A stretch of 6,776 nucleotides of DNA, taken from assembly GCA_900555975.1 (NCBI GenBank), contig USNI01000048.1, positions 1 through 6,776 on the forward strand, read 5' to 3'. This DNA comes from an uncultured Desulfovibrio sp. (GTDB taxonomy: Bacteria > Desulfobacterota > Desulfovibrionia > Desulfovibrionales > Desulfovibrionaceae). Shown one piece after another: positions 1 through 6,776 of the stretch. Position numbers and translations under genes: made by a program. The notes under the pieces were generated by a model. That model saw only the letters and a program-made list of their open reading frames with translations, was not told the origin of the DNA and did not search any database. The stretch's first letter is position 1, and each line of letters starts with the position of its first letter.

Positions 1-1
1 G

Positions 2-397
2 GCTCCGAGCTTTGAACGCGCTTCCGAAGCGGTGACGAAGAAGGTGTCCGAACTTTCCGCCGAAGACTGCGCCTTTGACATCGGTGAAGAAACGGTGAAG
101 GAATATGCGAAGCTTCTGGCCGATGCCCGTACCATCGTGTGGAACGGACCTGTGGGGGCATTCGAGACGGTTCCCTTCGACAAGGGCAGCCGTGCTCTGG
201 CCGACATCCTGGCCGACTCCGATGCCTATACCCTGGTGTGCGGCGGTGATACCGTGGCCGCGGTGGAGTCCTTCGGCGTAGCCTCCAGAATGGGCTATCT
301 TTCCACCGGCGGCGGCGCCTTCCTTGAAGTCCTGGAAGGCAAGACCCTGCCTGCCGTGGCGGCGCTTGCCGACGCGGCGTCGAAAAAGAAGATCTGA
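2..397 (+). CDS. pgk: Phosphoglycerate kinase, C-terminal part (5' end outside window)
   Basis: This is the last 131 codons of phosphoglycerate kinase, the cytoplasmic glycolytic enzyme that transfers phosphate between 1,3-bisphosphoglycerate and ADP. The frame is open from base 2, so the gene enters from the left; the GTG at base 32 is an internal valine, not a start. Visible nucleotide-domain motifs, numbered from the first visible residue, are WNGPVGAFE (47-55), GGDTVAAVESFG (81-92) and STGGGAFLE (101-109), followed by the usual LEGKTLPAV end. About two thirds of a normal protein of roughly 390-400 residues is missing on the left only because of the window edge. The stop at 395-397 is followed by a strong hairpin. 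The gene converges with the tungstate/molybdopterin operon and has no evident functional link to it. Identity is secure. Confidence 0.97.
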   Translation, partial: APSFERASEAVTKKVSELSAEDCAFDIGEETVKEYAKLLADARTIVWNGPVGAFETVPFDKGSRALADILADSDAYTLVCGGDTVAAVESFGVASRMGYLSTGGGAFLEVLEGKTLPAVAALADAASKKKI

Positions 398-450
398 CGA
401 ACGTGACCGGCTGGACGTCATCATCGTTCTGACCGGCCTCACATATCATG

Positions 451-486
451 GAGAAAGGGCGGGGAAAAGTTTCCCCGCCCTTTCTC
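451..486. terminator. Strong intrinsic terminator hairpin between convergent pgk and moaA
   Basis: A perfect 16-bp stem (451-466 with 471-486, arms GAGAAAGGGCGGGGAA and its complement) closes on a 4-base loop. Its GC-rich core is followed on the + strand by TTTCTCTTTA, giving a U-rich tail for pgk transcripts. On the minus strand the stem's own tail reads CCCTTTCTC, a poorer U-tract but plausible for the end of the moaA operon. It lies 53 bases after the pgk stop and 88 bases beyond the moaA stop. Its use by pgk is likely; bidirectional use is an inference. Confidence 0.88.
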
Positions 487-574
487 TTTATCAGGCTGAT
501 GCGTTTTGCCGATGGACGCCGCATCCCGTTTCAGTCGTTCCGTCTCCGGCAAGAAGGACGCCCGTCTTTTCCTG

Positions 575-1630
575 TCAGCCTCCTATGGCGGACATGCGCT
601 TATGGGCCACGGGACCGTTTCTGGAGGCAAGAATTTCCGCACCCACGGGTTTTCGTGAGACGGCGTCGATCATGATGCGGCGAACTTCTTCTGCACCCTT
701 GTCGCGCAGTGCGTCCCGCACGGGATATTCTCTGTCGTCGAAAAGACAGGTGCGGATATTGCCTTCCGCCGTCAGCCGCAGACGATTGCAGGACTGGCAG
801 AAGCTTTGCGTGACCGAGGTGATGAGGCCGAAGCTGCCTTTTGAAACGCGGCCGTCCGGCGTAACGAGCTTCCACAGTTTTGCAGGACCGCGTTCCTCGG
901 CCGCGTTTCCGTCGATTTCCTGACCGTCTCTGCGTCGCAGAGCCACCGGGTCGAGTCTCCAGTATCTGCGGGCCGTTTCCAGAATGTCGGCAGCCGGCCA
1001 GAACAGATTGTTCGACCAGATGGTGGAGTCTCCCATGGGCATGAACTCGATGAAGCGCACATCCACCGGCCAGTCCATGGCCATGGATGCAAGATCATGC
1101 AGTTCGACGTCGTTGACGCCGCGCATGGCCACGGCGTTGATCTTCAGGGGAATCCCCAGTTCCAGCATGCGATGCATATTGCCGAGCACCGTGGGCAGTT
1201 CGTCTCTGCCGGTGATGGCGGCGTATTTTTCGCGATCCAGAGAGTCAAGGGACAGATTGACGGATACATCCAGAGCCTTGAGCGTCTCCAGTGCGGGAGC
1301 GAGCAGGGTTCCGTTGGTGGTCAGCTTCAGCGCAATATGCGGGAATCGGTCGTGTATTTTGACGAGAAAATCAAGAAATCCCTTTCTGGCAAAGGGCTCT
1401 CCGCCGGTGAAGCGCAGTTTGTGCACGCCGAGACCGATGGCGATTTCGATGATTTTTTCTATTTCCTCGAAACGCAGGATCTTTTCGTGCGGAATGAAGG
1501 GAACGCCTTCATCCCGACAGTAGCGGCAGCAGAGATTGCAGCGGTCGGTCACGGAAATCCGCAGATAGCGTACGGTTCTGCCGTGTCCGTCGACGAGCAG
1601 GGCAGGGGAGACTTCATTCTGTTCCGGCAT
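575..1630 (-). CDS. moaA: GTP 3',8-cyclase MoaA (molybdopterin/tungstopterin synthesis, radical SAM)
   Basis: A 351-residue radical S-adenosylmethionine enzyme, close to the usual family length. With MoaC it converts GTP to cyclic pyranopterin monophosphate, the first step of molybdenum/tungsten cofactor synthesis; MoaA makes the 3',8-cyclo-GTP intermediate. The N-terminal cluster motif is C31-x3-C35-x2-C38 (CNLCCRYC), followed by the SAM-binding GGEP at 76-79 in RFTGGEPFARK. The second 4Fe-4S site is C278-x2-C281-x13-C295 within CQSCNRLRLTAEG, which in the family holds GTP. The protein ends in IGG, the conserved C-terminal double glycine, so it is complete. The start is supported by AAGGAG eight bases upstream, lying inside the last codons of the preceding fusion gene; only 4 bases separate the two. 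It is the last gene of the operon and reads toward the 451-486 terminator. Confidence 0.97.
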   Translation of the reverse strand: MPEQNEVSPALLVDGHGRTVRYLRISVTDRCNLCCRYCRDEGVPFIPHEKILRFEEIEKIIEIAIGLGVHKLRFTGGEPFARKGFLDFLVKIHDRFPHIALKLTTNGTLLAPALETLKALDVSVNLSLDSLDREKYAAITGRDELPTVLGNMHRMLELGIPLKINAVAMRGVNDVELHDLASMAMDWPVDVRFIEFMPMGDSTIWSNNLFWPAADILETARRYWRLDPVALRRRDGQEIDGNAAEERGPAKLWKLVTPDGRVSKGSFGLITSVTQSFCQSCNRLRLTAEGNIRTCLFDDREYPVRDALRDKGAEEVRRIMIDAVSRKPVGAEILASRNGPVAHKRMSAIGG

Positions 1631-1634
1631 GAGG

Positions 1635-2672
1635 TCAGCTCCTTCCGCAGTCGCTCATGTCGCCGTTGAGCTTTTCCAGCGCATGGGGCAGTACGGGCAG
1701 CAGTGCCGCAAGGTTTTCCTGTGCGGCGAGACGGCTTCCCGGCAGGGCGATGAGCATGGTCCGTCCCAGCGTACCGGCCAGACAGCGGGAGAGCACCGCA
1801 CGAGGCGTGTGTGCCAGACCTTCGGAGAACATGACCTGTTCGAAGCCGGGCAGACGGCGGTCCAGCACGGGCAGCAGGGCTTCCGGCGTGAAGTCGCGGG
1901 GAGAAAGCCCCGTACCTCCCGTGGTGACGATGAGTCCCCAGCCGGAGGAGGCAAGATCCCTGACAAGCTTGCGCAGAGCGCGCGGATCATCGGGCAGCAG
2001 GAAAAGCTCACGCTTTGCCGGCGACAGCTCGGAGAGCATGTCGAGCAGGGCGGGACCGCTTTCATCCACGCGGATTCCTGCATACCCCTTGTCGGAAAGC
2101 GTGATGCAGGCCACGGCGAGACCTTCGCCGTTCCAAGGTTCGGGCAGAGGTTTCGGCAGGGGCAAAGGCGTGTCCTCCACCTCGAAGAGCAGCGGATCAT
2201 CGGTCTTGAACAGACCGCTTTTGCCGCCGGACTTGAGAATGAGACGCACGTCGCGGATCACCACGTCCTTCTGCACGGCCTTGACCATGTCGTAGATGGT
2301 GGCCGCGGCAATCTGCGCCGCAATGATGGCCTCCATTTCCACGCCGGTGCGTCCTGTGGTGCTGGCTGAGGCCTCAAGGATCACGGCAGGAGGCTCGTCC
2401 TGCACTTTGAAGCGCACGTCGGCATGGGTTATGGCCAGAGGGTGACACATGGGAATAAGTTCAGCCGTGCGTTTCGCCGCCATGATGCCCGCCACCTGGG
2501 CCACGGTGAGAACATCGCCCTTGGGCAGAGCCTTTGCCTTGAGCAGTTCCAGCGTGTGGGCGTTCAGCTCCACCACGGCTCTGGCTATGGCCGTGCGCTT
2601 CGTTTCCTGCTTGGCGCCGACATCCACCATGCGGGGAGCGCCTGAAGCGTCGAGATGGGAGAATTCAGACAT
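1635..2672 (-). CDS. moaC: Fused MoaC (cPMP synthase) and MoaB/MogA-type (molybdopterin adenylyltransferase) protein
   Basis: A 345-residue two-domain protein. Residues 1-160 are MoaC, which rearranges 3',8-cyclo-GTP to cyclic pyranopterin monophosphate. Visible motifs are [12 protein letters not shown] (15-26), [17 protein letters not shown] (51-67), LIPMCHPL with H77, IYDMVKA with D128 and K131, and LKSGGKSG with K147; these are the residues expected at the MoaC active site. A proline-rich linker (about 165-182, [11 protein letters not shown]) leads to a MoaB/MogA-like domain (184-345) with [20 protein letters not shown] (250-255), SPRDFTPEA and LPG, the family that adenylylates molybdopterin before metal insertion. 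The [16 protein letters not shown] stretch leans toward MogA, but MoaB versus MogA cannot be settled by eye. GAGG lies six bases before the ATG. The MOSC gene ends 13 bases upstream. Such MoaC/MoaB fusions are known in proteobacteria; the symbol covers only the N-terminal half. Confidence 0.93.
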
Positions 2673-2685
2673 GACCGACCTCGTC

Positions 2686-3141
2686 TCATGCCTGGGGAAG
2701 AACCTGGGGACGGAAGGAAATGCGGATGCTGTCGCCGGGCTTTACCACGCCGCCTTTGATGATCCGGCAGAACACGCCTCTTCTGGGCATGATGCAGTCT
2801 CCGACCTGCTGTCGGATGGCGCAGCCCATGTGACACTCCTTGCCGATCTGGGTGAGCACAAGCTCGATGTCGTCGCCGATGGTGAAGCGGGTGCCGAGGG
2901 GGCAGGTATGGAGTTCCAGGCCTTCCGTGGTGATGTTTTCGGCAAAGTCGCCGGGATGGACGTCTGCCCCCATGGAGCGCATGTATTCTATGTCTTCCAT
3001 GGCGAGAAGGCTGAGCTGACGGTGGGAGCCGTCGGCATGGACGTCGCCTTCCACGCCGTGGTTGGCCACAAGCGTCACCTGCGGCTGATTGATTTTCTTT
3101 TCACCCTTGCGGGAACTTGTGGATACGGCAACGATGCGCAT
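2686..3141 (-). CDS. MOSC-domain protein (molybdenum/tungsten cofactor-associated)
   Basis: A 151-residue single MOSC domain protein. MOSC domains occur at the C terminus of Moco sulfurase and as small free-standing proteins linked to molybdopterin handling; the exact reaction of this class is not established. Recognisable family features are [16 protein letters not shown] at the N terminus, the [18 protein letters not shown] stretch (29-46), [15 protein letters not shown] (63-77), LGTRFTIGD (82-90) and a cysteine-bearing segment, [18 protein letters not shown] (99-116), then [11 protein letters not shown] chose the ATG at 3141 because GGAG lies eight bases upstream and homology starts there. 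The frame stays open a further 52 codons upstream, but that part overlaps the end of tupC and looks non-coding. Between tupC and the moaC fusion, it probably acts on cofactor maturation. No signal peptide or membrane segment is visible. Confidence 0.88.
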
Positions 3142-3184
3142 GATGTTTTCTCCAGACTTGCTGTGTTCGTTTATGATGTTGCTT

Positions 3185-3213
3185 GCGACCGGTCCGCATT
3201 CAGACCGGATCGC
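3185..3213 (-). repeat. Hairpin spanning the tupC stop codon
   Basis: GCGACCGGTC (3185-3194) pairs with GACCGGATCGC (3203-3213) across an 8-base loop, with one bulged base. The loop contains the tupC stop codon (3200-3202). No T-run follows on either strand, so it is not a standard intrinsic terminator; it may stabilise the upstream tupABC message or affect translation into the MOSC gene 58 bases on. The structure is seen in the sequence, the role is inference. Confidence 0.45.
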
Positions 3214-3832
3214 TGACAATGCCGATTTCCCTTGCATCGAGGGCTGCGGGAACGTCCCTGTCATGCGTGGCGCATACGACGCTGACGCCCCGGGCACGCA
3301 GAGACCTTACAACACTGAGTATGGCCTTTTCGCTCGCCGCGTCAACATTGGACGTCGGTTCATCGAGAAGAAGGACCGAGGGAGAAAGAATGAGACGCGA
3401 CGCCAGAGCTATGCGCTGTCTCTCTCCGCCGGAAAGTTCTCCCGGTCCGCGCGAGGCCATGCTTTCAGGGTCGGTGAAGCCTACGGCCAGCATGCTTTCC
3501 ATGTAGCCTTTGCGTGCAAGTTTTCTGTCGACTCCCCTCAGTCTCAGCCCCAGCGTGACGTTCCAGAAGACGGAGGCCTTCATGAGATACGGCTCCTGCA
3601 GCAGAAGAGTGATTTCCCTGCGGGGCTCCGTCTGGCTGCCTGTGTAGCGCAGAACGCCGGATGTGGGTTTTTCCAGAAAGGCGAGCAGACGCAGAAGCGT
3701 GGACTTGCCGCTGCCGTTTCTTCCGGTAAGCACCACGGTTTCTCCCCTTTCCATGACGAACGAGGGAAGATGGAGCGCCGTGATGCTGCCGTAGCATTTG
3801 CGCAGGTCGTGCGCTTCAAAAAGAATGTTCAT
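3200..3832 (-). CDS. tupC: Tungstate ABC transporter ATP-binding protein TupC
   Basis: A 210-residue ABC ATPase that powers the TupB permease on the inner face of the cytoplasmic membrane. The order of motifs is complete: Walker A GRNGSGKST (37-45), Q-loop Q79 in LLLQEPYL, signature LSGGERQR (133-140), Walker B VLLLDEP (153-159), D-loop SNVD (161-164) and switch histidine H190 in CATHDRD. It is short, with no C-terminal regulatory TOBE domain such as ModC carries, which fits TupC. Its ATG overlaps the tupB stop by four bases (ATGA), a sign of translational coupling, and AAGGGA sits just upstream. The specific assignment to tungstate rests on the adjacent tupA and tupB rather than on this sequence. 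Confidence 0.93.
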   Translation of the reverse strand: MNILFEAHDLRKCYGSITALHLPSFVMERGETVVLTGRNGSGKSTLLRLLAFLEKPTSGVLRYTGSQTEPRREITLLLQEPYLMKASVFWNVTLGLRLRGVDRKLARKGYMESMLAVGFTDPESMASRGPGELSGGERQRIALASRLILSPSVLLLDEPTSNVDAASEKAILSVVRSLRARGVSVVCATHDRDVPAALDAREIGIVSDPV

Positions 3833-4524
3833 GCGCGTCCCTTGTGTCTGAACCAGGCGAGAAGAAAATTGACCAGAAAGGCGATGAGCAGCAGCACGAG
3901 GCCGAGGGCTATGCCCTGAGCGAATTCTCCCTTGCTGGTTTCCAGAGAGATGGCGGTCGTCATGGTTCTTGTGGAGTAGCGGATGTTGCCGCCGAGCATC
4001 ATGGCGACGCCCACTTCCGTGACGACGCGTCCGAAGGCGGTGACACAGACCATGCCGAGATCATATCGTATTTCCCGTATGGTGTGCAGCGCAAGCTGCG
4101 AGGGGGATGCGCCAAGCGTCAGCAGCGTTTCCCGGCAGTGCCGGTCGAGGTTCTCCACGGCCTGCGCCGTCCATGAGATGACGATGGGCAGAGCGAGAAT
4201 GCTCTGGCCTATGATCATGCCCGGCAGCGTGAAAAGCAGACCGAACTGACCGAGCGGTCCGCGGTAGGTGATGAACACATATACGATGAGTCCTATCAGT
4301 ACCGTGGGGAAGGCCAGGAGCGTATCCGAGAGAAGCCTCAGAAATTTTTTTCCGGGAAACGTGGTGTAGCCGAGCAGAAATCCAAGAGGCAGTCCCAGAG
4401 TGGCTGCGATGAGCAGGGCGCAGCTTGTGGAGGAAAGCGTGGCCTGGATGGCGGAGAACGTGGCGTCGTCCATGTTCAGAAGCAGATCGAGCGCCTTGCT
4501 CATGCCTTCGCTGAAATATCCCAT
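3829..4524 (-). CDS. tupB: Tungstate ABC transporter permease TupB
   Basis: A 231-residue inner-membrane permease of the binding-protein-dependent transport family, forming the tungstate channel with TupC. Hydrophobic segments are visible at about 26-54, 64-86, 96-116, 154-178 and 205-226. The cytoplasmic loop that docks on the ATPase is RETLLTLGASPSQLALHTIR (131-150), an EAA-type loop with its conserved glycine at 138. The TEVGVAMMLGGNIRYSTRTM stretch (169-188) is typical of TupB. I chose the ATG at 4524 because it has an AGGT ribosome-binding sequence and gives the usual length. The frame continues 38 codons upstream to 4638, but that extension is Ser/Arg-rich, runs back through the intergenic hairpin and overlaps tupA. 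The stop overlaps the tupC start by four bases. Confidence 0.92.
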   Translation of the reverse strand: MGYFSEGMSKALDLLLNMDDATFSAIQATLSSTSCALLIAATLGLPLGFLLGYTTFPGKKFLRLLSDTLLAFPTVLIGLIVYVFITYRGPLGQFGLLFTLPGMIIGQSILALPIVISWTAQAVENLDRHCRETLLTLGASPSQLALHTIREIRYDLGMVCVTAFGRVVTEVGVAMMLGGNIRYSTRTMTTAISLETSKGEFAQGIALGLVLLLIAFLVNFLLAWFRHKGRA

Positions 4525-4539
4525 GATGACCTGCGGATG

Positions 4540-4572
4540 AAAAAAGGAAAGCGGGCCGGAGCGCCGGCCCGC
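4540..4572 (-). terminator. Terminator-like hairpin between tupA and tupB
   Basis: On the minus strand, 10 bases after the tupA stop codon, a 9-bp all-GC stem (GCGGGCCGG, 4564-4572 with 4551-4559) with a 4-base loop is followed by TTTCCTTTTTT, the layout of a Rho-independent terminator. It lies inside the operon, 16 bases before tupB, so it should act as a partial terminator or 3' stabiliser. That would leave the periplasmic binding protein in excess over permease and ATPase, as is common for ABC importers. Structure is seen; read-through is inferred. Confidence 0.78.
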
Positions 4573-4582
4573 CCGGGGATTG

Positions 4583-5404
4583 TTACTTGCCCGCGTTGGG
4601 GAAGAAGAGCTGCTTGCCTTCGAGCTTGTAGTCTTCAATGAGTTTCTGGGTTTCGGGCTTTACCCACCAGTCTTCGAACTTGACGGCAAGATCCTTCTTG
4701 ACGTTGGGGCAGATGGCGGGATTGGTCGTGATGACGCTGTACTGGTTGAACAGCGCGGAATCGCCTTCCACCACGATGGCAAGAGGATTGGCGTCGCCCT
4801 GCTGGTTGGCATACTTGATCCAGGTACCGCGGTCGGTAAGGGCATAGGCACCCTTTTCGGCGGCAATGGCCAGAGTGGCCATCATGCCCTGACCGGCGGA
4901 AATATAGAAGGGTTCCTTGTCGGGAGAGAGATTGGAGTCCTTCCACAGCTTCAGCTCGGCGGAATGGGTGCCTGACTTGTCGCCGCGGCTGACGAAGCCG
5001 GCCTTGGCGTCATAGATGGCCTTCAGCGCTTCGGCAGTGGTCTTGCCGGCAACTTTTGCAGGGTCGGCCTTGGGACCGACGATGACGAAGTCATTGTACA
5101 TGACCTGACGACGGTCGATGCCGTAGCCGTCTTCAATGAACTTCTTTTCCACATCGGGCGCATGAACGAGAAGAACGTCGGCGTCGCAGTTCTTGGAGAT
5201 TTCAAGAGCCTTGCCGGTGCCCACGGCCACCCACTTGAGATCAATGCCGGTTTCCTTCTTGAAGGTGGGCACGACGTATTCCAGCAGACCGGAATCCTGG
5301 GTGCTGGTGGTCGTGGCCATCATCAGAGAGTCGGCCGCCTGCGCGGGGATGGCGCAGGACAGTGCAAGCAGGGTGCTGAAAAGGATTTTGCCTGAATGAT
5401 TCAT
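4583..5404 (-). CDS. tupA: Periplasmic tungstate-binding protein TupA
   Basis: A 273-residue extracytoplasmic solute-binding protein that captures tungstate and delivers it to TupB. Residues 1-23 form a signal peptide (K6, hydrophobic core ILFSTLLALSCAIP, cleavage predicted after AQA at 23). The mature N terminus carries the TupA hallmark TTTSTQDSGLL (31-41). Further oxyanion-binding-fold segments are VAVGTGKALEISKNCDADVLLVHAP (split here for reference at 59-83), NDFVIVGP (104-111) and SRGDKSGTH (139-147), whose Arg140 is a candidate ligand to the anion. These motifs separate TupA from ModA and WtpA. The start is well supported by AAGGAG seven bases upstream. The gene follows tunR by 52 bases, a gap holding an inverted repeat, and is followed by a terminator-like hairpin. 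Selectivity for tungstate over molybdate is known for the family but not shown here. Confidence 0.95.
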   Translation of the reverse strand: MNHSGKILFSTLLALSCAIPAQAADSLMMATTTSTQDSGLLEYVVPTFKKETGIDLKWVAVGTGKALEISKNCDADVLLVHAPDVEKKFIEDGYGIDRRQVMYNDFVIVGPKADPAKVAGKTTAEALKAIYDAKAGFVSRGDKSGTHSAELKLWKDSNLSPDKEPFYISAGQGMMATLAIAAEKGAYALTDRGTWIKYANQQGDANPLAIVVEGDSALFNQYSVITTNPAICPNVKKDLAVKFEDWWVKPETQKLIEDYKLEGKQLFFPNAGK

Positions 5405-5428
5405 GGAAAAGCTCCTTGTATGGTTTTG

Positions 5429-5450
5429 CGATGTCTCCGGGGAGACATCG
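5429..5450. repeat. Perfect inverted repeat in the tunR-tupA gap
   Basis: CGATGTCTCC and its exact complement GGAGACATCG flank two bases, a 22-base perfect inverted repeat. It lies 9 bases upstream of the tupA Shine-Dalgarno sequence. On the minus strand it is followed by CAAAACC, not a T-run, so it is not an intrinsic terminator. It may be a protein-binding operator, since it shares ATGTC/GACAT half-sites with the element upstream of tunR, or an RNA hairpin that protects the 5' end of tupA mRNA after processing. No clear -35/-10 pair is visible for tupA. Confidence 0.6.
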
Positions 5451-5456
5451 GCGTTG

Positions 5457-6416
5457 TCAGTCGGGAATGAGATGGACGCCCCGGGCCGGAAAGCTCATGC
5501 AGACTCTGCTTCCCTGGCGGATATTGAGTCTGGACAGAAAAGCCGTTTCCTGTACGGCGTTTATCTGTGTGCCGTCTCCAAGTTCCAGAACGAGAAACGT
5601 CTCCACCGTATCCTGATGCATGGCTGCGACGGTGGCCCGTACCGGGCCTTGAAGGGCGGCAGGCATTTTCTCGGTGGATACGACGATGCACTCCGGATCT
5701 ATGACGACGGTAACTACCTGATTGAGATGCAGTTCCATGTTCATGAACTGCCTTGCCTCGCACAGGGCCGCAATGACCAGATCGGAAAAGGTGGTGACTT
5801 CCACGCTGACGGCCCGCATGCCCGTGGAAATGGCGGTGACGATGCCGATGAATGTGTTCCCGTTTTCGTCGTTCCACCCGTTCTTTTCTGCTGATGCTCC
5901 ACGCACGATGCGTTTTGCTTCGCCTCCTGCGAAGTCCAGAAATTCCGTGATCTGGGAATGTTTCTGCTGACCGAGAAAGGTCTGGACCACATTGAAGGGA
6001 ACATGGAGTTCGAGAAGTTCCAGCCCCCTGGCATAGCGTATGGCACGCGGTCCGGCCATTCCGGGAGACAGCCCCATGCCTTCGGCCACGGCGTAGAACT
6101 TCTTGCGTACGAATCCCTGATCAAAGCGCAGGAAGCCGTCCTGTTCAGCTTCAGGCAGACTCAGGATCCGTCGGATGTGCTTCATGCAGGAGAGCGGCAG
6201 CAAGACATCCCGACTGCCGGGGTCGGGCACGTGCACCATGCCGGTCACGGTGTCGATGGTTTCGCGGACAGGCATTCCAAGTGCTTCGCCGAGACGCAGC
6301 CCTCCGTATCGGATGAGCAGAAAAAGAAGATGAAGCCGCGCGCGGACGATTTTTTTCGCCGTGGTCGTGGCCTCTGCTTCCCATGCCTCCCAGCGCAGGG
6401 TAAGCTGTTCGAGCAT
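5457..6416 (-). CDS. tunR: TunR-type tungstate-responsive regulator: dead tyrosine recombinase fold plus tandem Mop domains
   Basis: A 319-residue protein from the ATG at 6416. Residues about 1-170 align without gaps to the catalytic half of XerC/XerD recombinases: YGGLRLGEAL carries the first Arg (R41), VHVPDPGSRDVLLPL matches the beta-hairpin with Pro66 in place of the catalytic Lys, and GPRAIRYARGLELLEL through LGQQKHSQITEFLDF has R124 for His, a kept R127, Q150 for His/Trp and F159 for the nucleophilic Tyr. It should therefore bind DNA but not cut it. Residues about 185-250 and 255-317 are two Mop/TOBE repeats (GNTFIGIVTAISTGM; LQGPVRATVAAMHQD) as in ModE, which bind molybdate or tungstate. 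This architecture defines TunR, known from sulfate reducers. The frame is open to an ATG at 6626, but that extension is unlike the family and crosses an inverted repeat, and the 6416 ATG itself has only a weak AGAAG upstream, so the start is provisional. It heads the operon and probably controls tupABC. Confidence 0.88.
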   Translation of the reverse strand: MLEQLTLRWEAWEAEATTTAKKIVRARLHLLFLLIRYGGLRLGEALGMPVRETIDTVTGMVHVPDPGSRDVLLPLSCMKHIRRILSLPEAEQDGFLRFDQGFVRKKFYAVAEGMGLSPGMAGPRAIRYARGLELLELHVPFNVVQTFLGQQKHSQITEFLDFAGGEAKRIVRGASAEKNGWNDENGNTFIGIVTAISTGMRAVSVEVTTFSDLVIAALCEARQFMNMELHLNQVVTVVIDPECIVVSTEKMPAALQGPVRATVAAMHQDTVETFLVLELGDGTQINAVQETAFLSRLNIRQGSRVCMSFPARGVHLIPD

Positions 6417-6491
6417 GCTTCTGTTCAAATGTTGCTGAGTCAATGGGTACTTCGCAGTTTGCCTGTTCCGGTCCGCGGAAATACGGAATCG

Positions 6492-6511
6492 GACATGGAG
6501 CGGGCCATGTC
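6492..6511. repeat. Short inverted repeat GACATGG-6-CCATGTC
   Basis: GACATGG (6492-6498) and its exact complement CCATGTC (6505-6511) are separated by six bases. The right arm is shared with the left arm of the larger inverted repeat, giving three related half-sites in a row on alternating strands (6492-6498, 6505-6511, 6534-6540 as GTCATGG). This arrangement suggests cooperative protein binding, though it is an inference. Confidence 0.4.
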
Positions 6512-6540
6512 GTTTCATAAATGACATAAAAACGTCATGG
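6505..6540. promoter_or_regulatory. 36-bp inverted repeat with 11-bp arms, candidate TunR operator
   Basis: CCATGTCGTTT (6505-6515) and AAACGTCATGG (6530-6540) are inverted repeats with a single mismatch in 11 positions, separated by a 14-base AT-rich spacer. The spacer begins with part of TCATAAATGA, itself a small palindrome at 6515-6524. The element lies 89-124 bases before the tunR start codon. Two 11-bp arms around an AT-rich centre resemble a Xer recombinase core site, and TunR proteins are reported to bind a motif of about 30 bp, so autoregulation and operon control by TunR is a reasonable inference. Binding is not shown by sequence alone. Confidence 0.55.
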
Positions 6541-6602
6541 TGTATATGCTGTGAAAAATGTCCGTTACTCCATGCGGCATCCTCTTCAAGAGAAAGAATG
6601 CT

Positions 6603-6622
6603 CGTTTCAAAATAACAGAAAA
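6603..6622. repeat. Second, imperfect copy of the operator centre
   Basis: This stretch, starting CGTTTCAAAAT, matches 6511-6531 (starting CGTTTCATAAAT) at 18 of 21 aligned positions, allowing one gap and two mismatches; the copies start 92 bases apart on the same strand. It could be a second binding site for the regulator further upstream of tunR. AT-rich composition raises the chance of coincidence, although the shared CGTTTCA and ACA blocks are not simple runs. Confidence 0.35.
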
Positions 6623-6647
6623 TCACCGTTTGAGCAATACTGAAATG

Positions 6648-6667
6648 GTGAAGCGCTTAGTGAAGCG
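6648..6667. repeat. Two direct GTGAAGCG repeats, 12 bases apart
   Basis: GTGAAGCG occurs at 6648-6655 and again at 6660-6667, a 12-base period close to one helical turn. The first copy overlaps the palindrome AAGCGCTT (6651-6658). Such a layout can be an activator site, but no regulator can be assigned. Confidence 0.3.
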
Positions 6668-6776
6668 GTTTTTATTTCAAAATTATCATACTTCCTTTCA
6701 AGATCATTGAATAAAAAAGTGAAAAACGTTTTCATGGAACGCCCTCCCGGCAGACGCGGGCCCTCTTTTTTTTTTT

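Follow-up and report, generated by a model that had tools for sequence, protein, structure and literature searches.

A TunR-type protein without most recombinase active-site residues and the known Mop ligand set, and its likely role beside tungstate-uptake genes

Background

What does a protein built like a site-specific recombinase do at the head of a run of tungstate-uptake and cofactor genes? The question is raised by a stretch of 6,776 nucleotides from an uncultured Desulfovibrio sp. (assembly GCA_900555975.1, contig USNI01000048.1, positions 1 to 6,776; hereafter the window), in which a regulator gene is followed on the minus strand by tupA, tupB, a short tupC, a MOSC gene, a moaC-moaB fusion and moaA. 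We consider the regulator to be a TunR-type protein with two predicted parts, a Xer catalytic domain in which four of six active-site residues are missing and a di-Mop domain of the ModE type. It likely controls transcription of the tungstate-uptake and cofactor genes that flank its own promoter on either side. A first-pass annotation had already proposed a dead recombinase with two Mop domains in a TunR-type architecture. This part stands, but the functional roles, the sensing and the operator sites suggested there need correction.

5457..6443, minus strand: regulator gene, 328 amino acids from a probable TTG start at 6441-6443
5877..6443, minus strand: Xer-type tyrosine-recombinase catalytic-domain fold, residues 1-189, predicted structure
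5457..5876, minus strand: di-Mop (TOBE) domain, ModE/ModG fold, residues 190-328, predicted structure

The reading frame offers two other starts, an ATG at 6416 (319 amino acids) and an in-frame GTG at 6626 (389 amino acids). The TTG is located nine codons above the ATG, is preceded by an invariant GAAG and is kept in all seven aligned upstream regions. Because of this conservation, and because the named Mailhella homologue P0004 also has 328 amino acids, the TTG start is preferred. Residue numbers follow this form, and those of the first-pass annotation are 9 lower.

The recombinase-type domain

Structure prediction found an Xer-type catalytic-domain fold in residues 1-189, and the proposed gap-free alignment with XerD from the HxxR box to the Tyr box was borne out. 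When the predicted fold is compared with known recombinases, the regulator starts at residue 100 of XerA and residue 169 of XerH, and the N-terminal core-binding domain is absent. At the positions that read R-K-H-R-H-Y in tyrosine recombinases the window's protein has R50, P75, R133, R136, Q159 and F168. Four of the six catalytic residues are replaced and the residue set of an active tyrosine recombinase is missing, exactly as read before for this protein.

Matches to the regulator are present in 230 of 288 genomes of the same family. From the matches listed all 43 close ones and 44 more distant ones, mostly from the top of the list, were sampled. Active-site residues were counted in 87 aligned members, omitting the partial locus L074. 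The second Arg is retained in all 87 and the box-II His in none; the first catalytic position holds Arg in 75 members and Lys in the other 12. The third-box His is kept in 13 and the Tyr in 17. The decay of the active site across the family is graded. Some mod-type TunR-like proteins (signature KERRHY in L091, L093 and L094, KVRRHY in L115, plus others) have the Tyr and the third-box His, but their first Arg is replaced by Lys and the box-II His is absent.

An alternative would be an active or recently active site-specific recombinase with the upstream repeats as recombination site, given the clear predicted Xer fold and a family operator (see below) that is inverted like a recombinase core site. 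However, neither the window's protein nor any of the 43 aligned members of its clade keeps the box-II His, the beta-hairpin Lys, the third-box His or the Tyr. The protein also has no core-binding domain, and the surrounding gene order is stable. This explanation is strongly disfavoured and almost certainly wrong.

A clade linked to tup genes

The window's protein shares about 25-35% identity over most of its length with the mod-linked paralogues fetched for comparison (E down to 6e-50). Together with the Xer-like domain without an intact catalytic set and the ModE-like di-Mop fold, this full-length homology and the joint tree with the mod-linked members support the assignment to the TunR type. 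In the tree of 74 sequences (13 near-duplicates dropped) 35 tup-type sequences, including the window's, are located on one side of a single branch with a support of 100/100 and a length of 0.97 changes per column. The gene tupA is next downstream on the same strand in 32 of the 43 tup-type loci. The regulator follows tupC in two others (L070 and L073) and is divergent from tupABC in L074. At L066, where the examined stretch contains no tup gene, the tup-type regulator has a TrkA-like neighbour.

At the paralogue loci mod neighbours were found by tblastn with Escherichia coli ModABC and a Desulfovibrio ModA. Ten of 44 paralogues have a divergent modA on one side and convergent mod genes on the other, and five are divergent from modABC, a setting beside divergent modA or modABC that we take to be that of TunR. 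In a search with one paralogue as query, among the best 120 of 1001 proteins many of the named ones are called molybdate transport system regulatory protein. No TSUP neighbour was detected at the paralogue loci with E. coli YfcA as query, which is a weak test. TunR proteins are reported to act as activators of modABC or repressors of TSUP transporters. The first-pass annotation was right about the family, but these roles would belong to other branches, since the window's clade is associated with tup. Four Mailhella genomes encode a second TunR-like protein (L101-L104), a very divergent paralogue with a stem of 2.07 that lacks the Mop ligand set and has no mod or tup gene in the examined stretch. 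Tup-type and mod-type genes occur side by side in one genome, G045.

A di-Mop domain without the known ligands

The predicted fold recovers the two ModE-type Mop domains expected behind the recombinase half. The type-2 oxyanion ligands, which we take to be S126, R128, T163, S166 and K183 in ModE numbering, are a different matter. At these five positions and at A184 the window's residues are E, G, E, Q, D and P (E193, G195, Q232, D249 and P250 correspond to ModE S126, R128, S166, K183 and A184), and the canonical ligand set is absent from its di-Mop domain. The complete combination of S126, R128 and K183 is found in none of the 43 tup-type proteins versus 40 of the 44 others, the four exceptions being the second Mailhella paralogues (L101-L104); six tup-type rows retain at least one of the three. 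In section 7 of PMC11980592 the type-2 site of Tub is described as holding the anion via Ser4, Arg6, Ser40, Lys60 and Ala61, as in Mop and ModE. As this ligand set of ModE and Tub is missing, tungstate sensing should not be assumed. With the ligands of the pocket gone, the metal would probably be sensed, if at all, by means other than the classic Mop pocket.

The regulator might bind DNA but no oxyanion, with the di-Mop domain serving as dimerisation scaffold only and tup/moa expression at a fixed or autoregulated level. The lack of the complete Ser/Arg/Lys set in the whole clade and the long stem branch before it speak for this explanation, which we nevertheless regard as rather improbable. 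Several positions are invariant in the clade instead. All 43 tup-type proteins have Arg at position 210 and Phe at position 283, residues that none of the 44 others has there. His at position 276 is shared by all 43 and by one of the 44 others; Glu at position 281 is likewise invariant in the clade but is also found in 19 of the 44 others. By our own reading of the alignment, R210 aligns with Val21 of the Tub type-1 loop in the first Mop repeat (gap-free count from the SARN position), and H276 and F283 flank the same loop in the second repeat, just before and just after it. The Tub contacts at this loop are backbone contacts. Because the fold is kept and new residues have been fixed, the domain appears to be changed rather than dead. 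If a site has been rebuilt, R210, H276 and F283, which lie within or next to the beta1-beta2 loops, are the most likely residues to form it.

A further-reaching proposal is that the tup-linked clade is functionally a class of its own, the third after the modABC and TSUP TunRs. Its pocket would have been dismantled and rebuilt at the beta1-beta2 loops (R210 at the type-1 position of Tub/ModG, H276, F283) as a tungstate-selective sensor, and Mailhella would then have changed the recognised DNA sequence jointly at the tup/moeA and the modA promoters. We put this forward only tentatively, as a possibility that is more probably wrong than right.

Operator sites in the family

A symmetric motif search was seeded with GTCACG-N14-CGTGAC, a sequence that precedes tupA in Desulfovibrio-type loci. 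The search converged on GTCACGctttc-nnnn-gaaagCGTGAC. Scores of about 16 or more were reached by 39 of 88 sequences; in the control of 237 coding windows the 99th percentile was 15.96 and the maximum 20.2. The operator is located 130-380 base pairs (bp) upstream of 24 of the 44 paralogues and in the regulator-tupA gap of 13 sister tup loci (L050, L051, L055-L065; scores 19.0-25.4), while L007 and L042 score 16.3 and 18.9, each on one good half. Among 13 non-Mailhella genomes with modA, seven promoters were fetched, five were part of the training set and one was not fetched. All seven fetched promoters, which are outside the training set, carry the operator (16.1-22.8), and two of the five training loci score similarly (L099 18.9, L118 20.0). 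The operator is absent from the window, where the best score is 1.6, and from the ten Mailhella core sequences, window included, which score at most 5.2. It is also found in none of nine Mailhella modA promoters (best score 9.0). Eighteen positions separate the Mailhella proteins from the operator-bearing tup-type relatives, too many to name a single specificity residue. Downstream of the regulator, L070-L073 have a GCGTGACTG(C/T)TTTT... element, in L070 as the tandem repeat AAAAAGCGTGACTGCTTTTGCAAAAAGTGTACA with half-sites in direct, not inverted, order.

Conserved blocks between moeA and the regulator

In Mailhella the regulator and a divergent moeA are separated by about 360-400 bp, a gap that would serve both transcription directions, and the window ends about 55 bp before moeA as judged against L001. 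This region contains the following elements.

6668..6689, minus strand: block A, ATGATAATTTTGAAAT half-site in forward orientation, with TGAAAT exact in all ten Mailhella regions
6631..6652, plus strand: block B, AATACTGAAATG half-site in inverted orientation, exact in six of the ten Mailhella regions
6598..6619, minus strand: block C, TTATTTTGAAAC in the window, TGAAAT in 8 of 10 Mailhella regions
6548..6560, plus strand: fourth, weaker copy GCTGTGAAAAATG, inverted, by eye

Block C reads TGAAAC in the window and L001. The spacing is 33 bp from A to B and 70-73 bp from A to C in the eight regions whose block C has TGAAAT. Exact TGAAAT/ATTTCA was counted 34 times in the ten moeA/regulator regions versus about 6 expected, a count that is not independent because the Mailhella regions are related. 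By eye, the other strand of block B offers a possible -35 element (TTGCTC) and block C overlaps a possible -10 element; a sigma-70 promoter scan gave one match, on the other strand, with 1.0 expected by chance. The first-pass gel-shift target at 6480-6640 overlaps these blocks, but they span about 6548-6689 and extend past its end.

Block C resembles an element before modA: in nine of nine Mailhella genomes the modA promoter has A(A/C)T(A/T)TTGAAATGAG at the start codon, over the ribosome site. The 13-mer ATATTGAAATGAG has five exact matches in seven genomes, all before modA, and 22 with one mismatch, three of which are block C; the reversed control gave 2 in all. These similarities suggest that one factor reads both the moeA/regulator and the modA promoters, and we infer that this factor may be the window's protein.

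The protein would dimerise through its di-Mop domain, like ModE, and each Xer domain would hold one half-site of an inverted pair, much as the two halves of a core site are bound by a Xer dimer, but with no strand exchange. The site would be GTCACG-N14-CGTGAC in several sister lineages. In the window's lineage it would have been lost, with TTGAAAT-type half-sites used in the moeA/regulator promoter region (about 6548-6689) and a similar change at the modA promoter. Overall, transcription of tup, moa and moeA would be lower when tungstate is plentiful, by repression or by lost activation. TunR of D. vulgaris activates modABC, and this activation falls with tungstate. The overlap of blocks B and C with the promoter hexamers, which were chosen by eye, would lean to repression.

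Several observations weigh against this reading. Eight of the 43 clade loci have no tup gene in the examined stretch (L043, L047, L066-L069, L071, L072). The operator motif scores are in-sample; 29 of 44 tup-type sequences score below 15.96, namely the 10 Mailhella and 19 others, so that the loss is not confined to Mailhella, and three modA-side paralogue loci of the training set fall short as well (L085 6.7, L086 2.6, L100 14.5). Genome-wide, among the matches listed, there are 4-19 one-mismatch copies of GTCACG-N14-CGTGAC per genome versus 3-15 for the reversed control, and seven Mailhella genomes hold 9-19 versus 3-7. The 13-letter element was picked after both promoters had been seen, the window's block C is two letters off it, and 19 of its 27 matches with at most one mismatch lie elsewhere than in modA promoters or block C. 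Of these, 16 are in open frames of at least 100 amino acids, two in an RNA-like stretch (by eye) and one at a gene start; the open-frame test is loose because it also caught three of the five modA sites.

A different factor, such as TupR or the second TunR-like protein of Mailhella, could also be what binds blocks A-C. The TTGAAAT blocks would then belong to a TaoR/TupR-type regulator or to this second paralogue, and the window's protein would act elsewhere or on its own gene only. TaoR/TupR has been named as a regulator of tungstate uptake in Desulfovibrio (Rajeev et al. 2019, as cited in PMC10102598 and PMC11980592), and the former ties D. vulgaris tupABC to tupR/DVU3193. The second divergent gene in the four fetched Mailhella genomes and the occurrence of the blocks before modA on another contig also fit this view. 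However, no HTH_17 match was found in an open frame of 250-450 amino acids in eight Mailhella genomes, although this test may miss TaoR, and the run of genes behind the blocks starts with the regulator. We judge this alternative rather unlikely.

The tup-type regulator might also have taken the place of TaoR. A PF12727 search of 21 genomes, a probe that may miss D. vulgaris TaoR, returned the moeA fusion described below plus weaker matches. Eight of the weaker ones were fetched; seven look like PstS-type binding proteins by eye and the frame of L154 is unclear. With the same limit, 25 of 28 other genomes (26 without a tup-type gene) match at E 1e-18. A second match occurs only in G029 and G032, that of G029 sharing its frame with an HTH_17 match. 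Further MoeA-PBP fusions are present in G052, G062 and G050 (L159, L160, L161).

The gap between regulator and tupA

5429..5450, minus strand: stem-loop between the regulator stop and the tupA ribosome site

The first-pass annotation had offered 5405-5456 as a gel-shift target for an operator, but it contains a stem-loop that relatives do not conserve in sequence. Folding of the window and ten relatives gave a stem in every regulator-tupA gap, with differing sequence and weak in L005 and L041. The palindrome was therefore rejected as first choice for an operator, and an RNA hairpin suits it better. The z-scores range from -4.0 to 0.0, with 6 of 11 at or below -1.7, and given this spread the case for an RNA hairpin is less convincing in some of them. 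A riboswitch was looked for in the window and six relatives, without any Rfam match at the gathering score.

Gene order

2-397, opposite strand to the regulator-tup-moa run: end of a phosphoglycerate kinase gene
575..1630, minus strand: moaA, TIGR02666 match above cut-off
1635..2672, minus strand: moaC-moaB fusion, NF002947 match above cut-off
2686..3141, minus strand: MOSC-domain protein; the listed open reading frame extends to 3297
3200..3832, minus strand: tupC-like ATP-binding cassette ATPase, 210 amino acids, without TOBE domain
3829..4527, minus strand: tupB permease, NF041773, 288 bits versus a cut-off of 320; the listed frame extends to 4638 and the model match points to an ATG near 4527
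4583..5404, minus strand: tupA, tungstate-binding protein, NF041772, 325 bits versus a curated cut-off of 400

The placement of the regulator at the head of a tupABC-moa run holds, with tupABC, MOSC, moaCB and moaA following on the same strand. Measured against the TupC model of 319 positions, the TupC-like ATPase is missing its C-terminal portion. Among seven loci in public genomes the closest relative of the regulator is that of an uncultured Mailhella metagenome-assembled genome (93% protein identity). The divergent moeA is present in nine of nine Mailhella loci, and a second moeA with a fused PBP-like domain, also divergent from the regulator, in all eight with sufficiently long contigs; the pair is located at 4246-7585 of L001 and in the same place in other Mailhella loci. 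The moaCB-moaA tail is found in eight of nine, the contig of L040 ending early. In D. vulgaris both moeA genes were inferred to be necessary for the tungsten cofactor of Aor (PMC10102598). The idea that Mailhella lacks molybdate uptake was rejected, as ModA-like proteins were found in all 22 genomes searched, including nine of nine Mailhella genomes.

Comparison with known systems

In this family a DNA-cutting enzyme has probably been turned into a switch, and the order of residue loss may be readable, the box-II His being gone in 87 of 87 members and the Tyr in most but not all. The clade retains a metal-sensor fold without its known ligand residues, in a branch beside a tungstate-specific transporter, and offers a direct test of how cells distinguish tungstate from molybdate in the cytoplasm. 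The operator change at two separate promoters, if true, would show clearly how a regulon can be rewired.

The TunR family of tungstate-responsive regulators was reportedly described by Kazakov et al. in 2013 (J Bacteriol 195:4466). No paper on TunR in connection with tungstate or Desulfovibrio, on a TunR regulon or on tungstate in Mailhella was found in the literature searched, whose coverage does not include the 2013 paper, so that an earlier mention of a tup-linked group is possible. The family has been known since 2013, and the tup-linked clade of the window is a separate variant without the ligand set. Like the family, the window's protein combines a Xer-like DNA-binding domain with a ModE-like di-Mop domain, in Desulfovibrionaceae and beside a tungstate/molybdate transporter, and the fetched paralogues of this architecture adjoin modABC, many with the shared operator. 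Unlike the other TunR-type members it belongs to a separate tup-linked clade that has lost the oxyanion ligand set, it has a Phe where 17 of 87 members have the Tyr, and the operator of other members is absent in its lineage. With XerA, XerH and XerD it shares the catalytic-domain fold and the gap-free alignment through the HxxR-to-Tyr boxes, but it lacks four of six catalytic residues and the core-binding domain, and has a C-terminal di-Mop domain instead. TaoR/TupR, as described in the sources cited above, consists of a helix-turn-helix and a PBP-like domain, unlike the Xer and Mop domains of the window's protein. Compared with E. coli ModE, the window's protein has a Xer fold in place of the winged helix, and ModE S126, R128, S166 and K183 are not kept.
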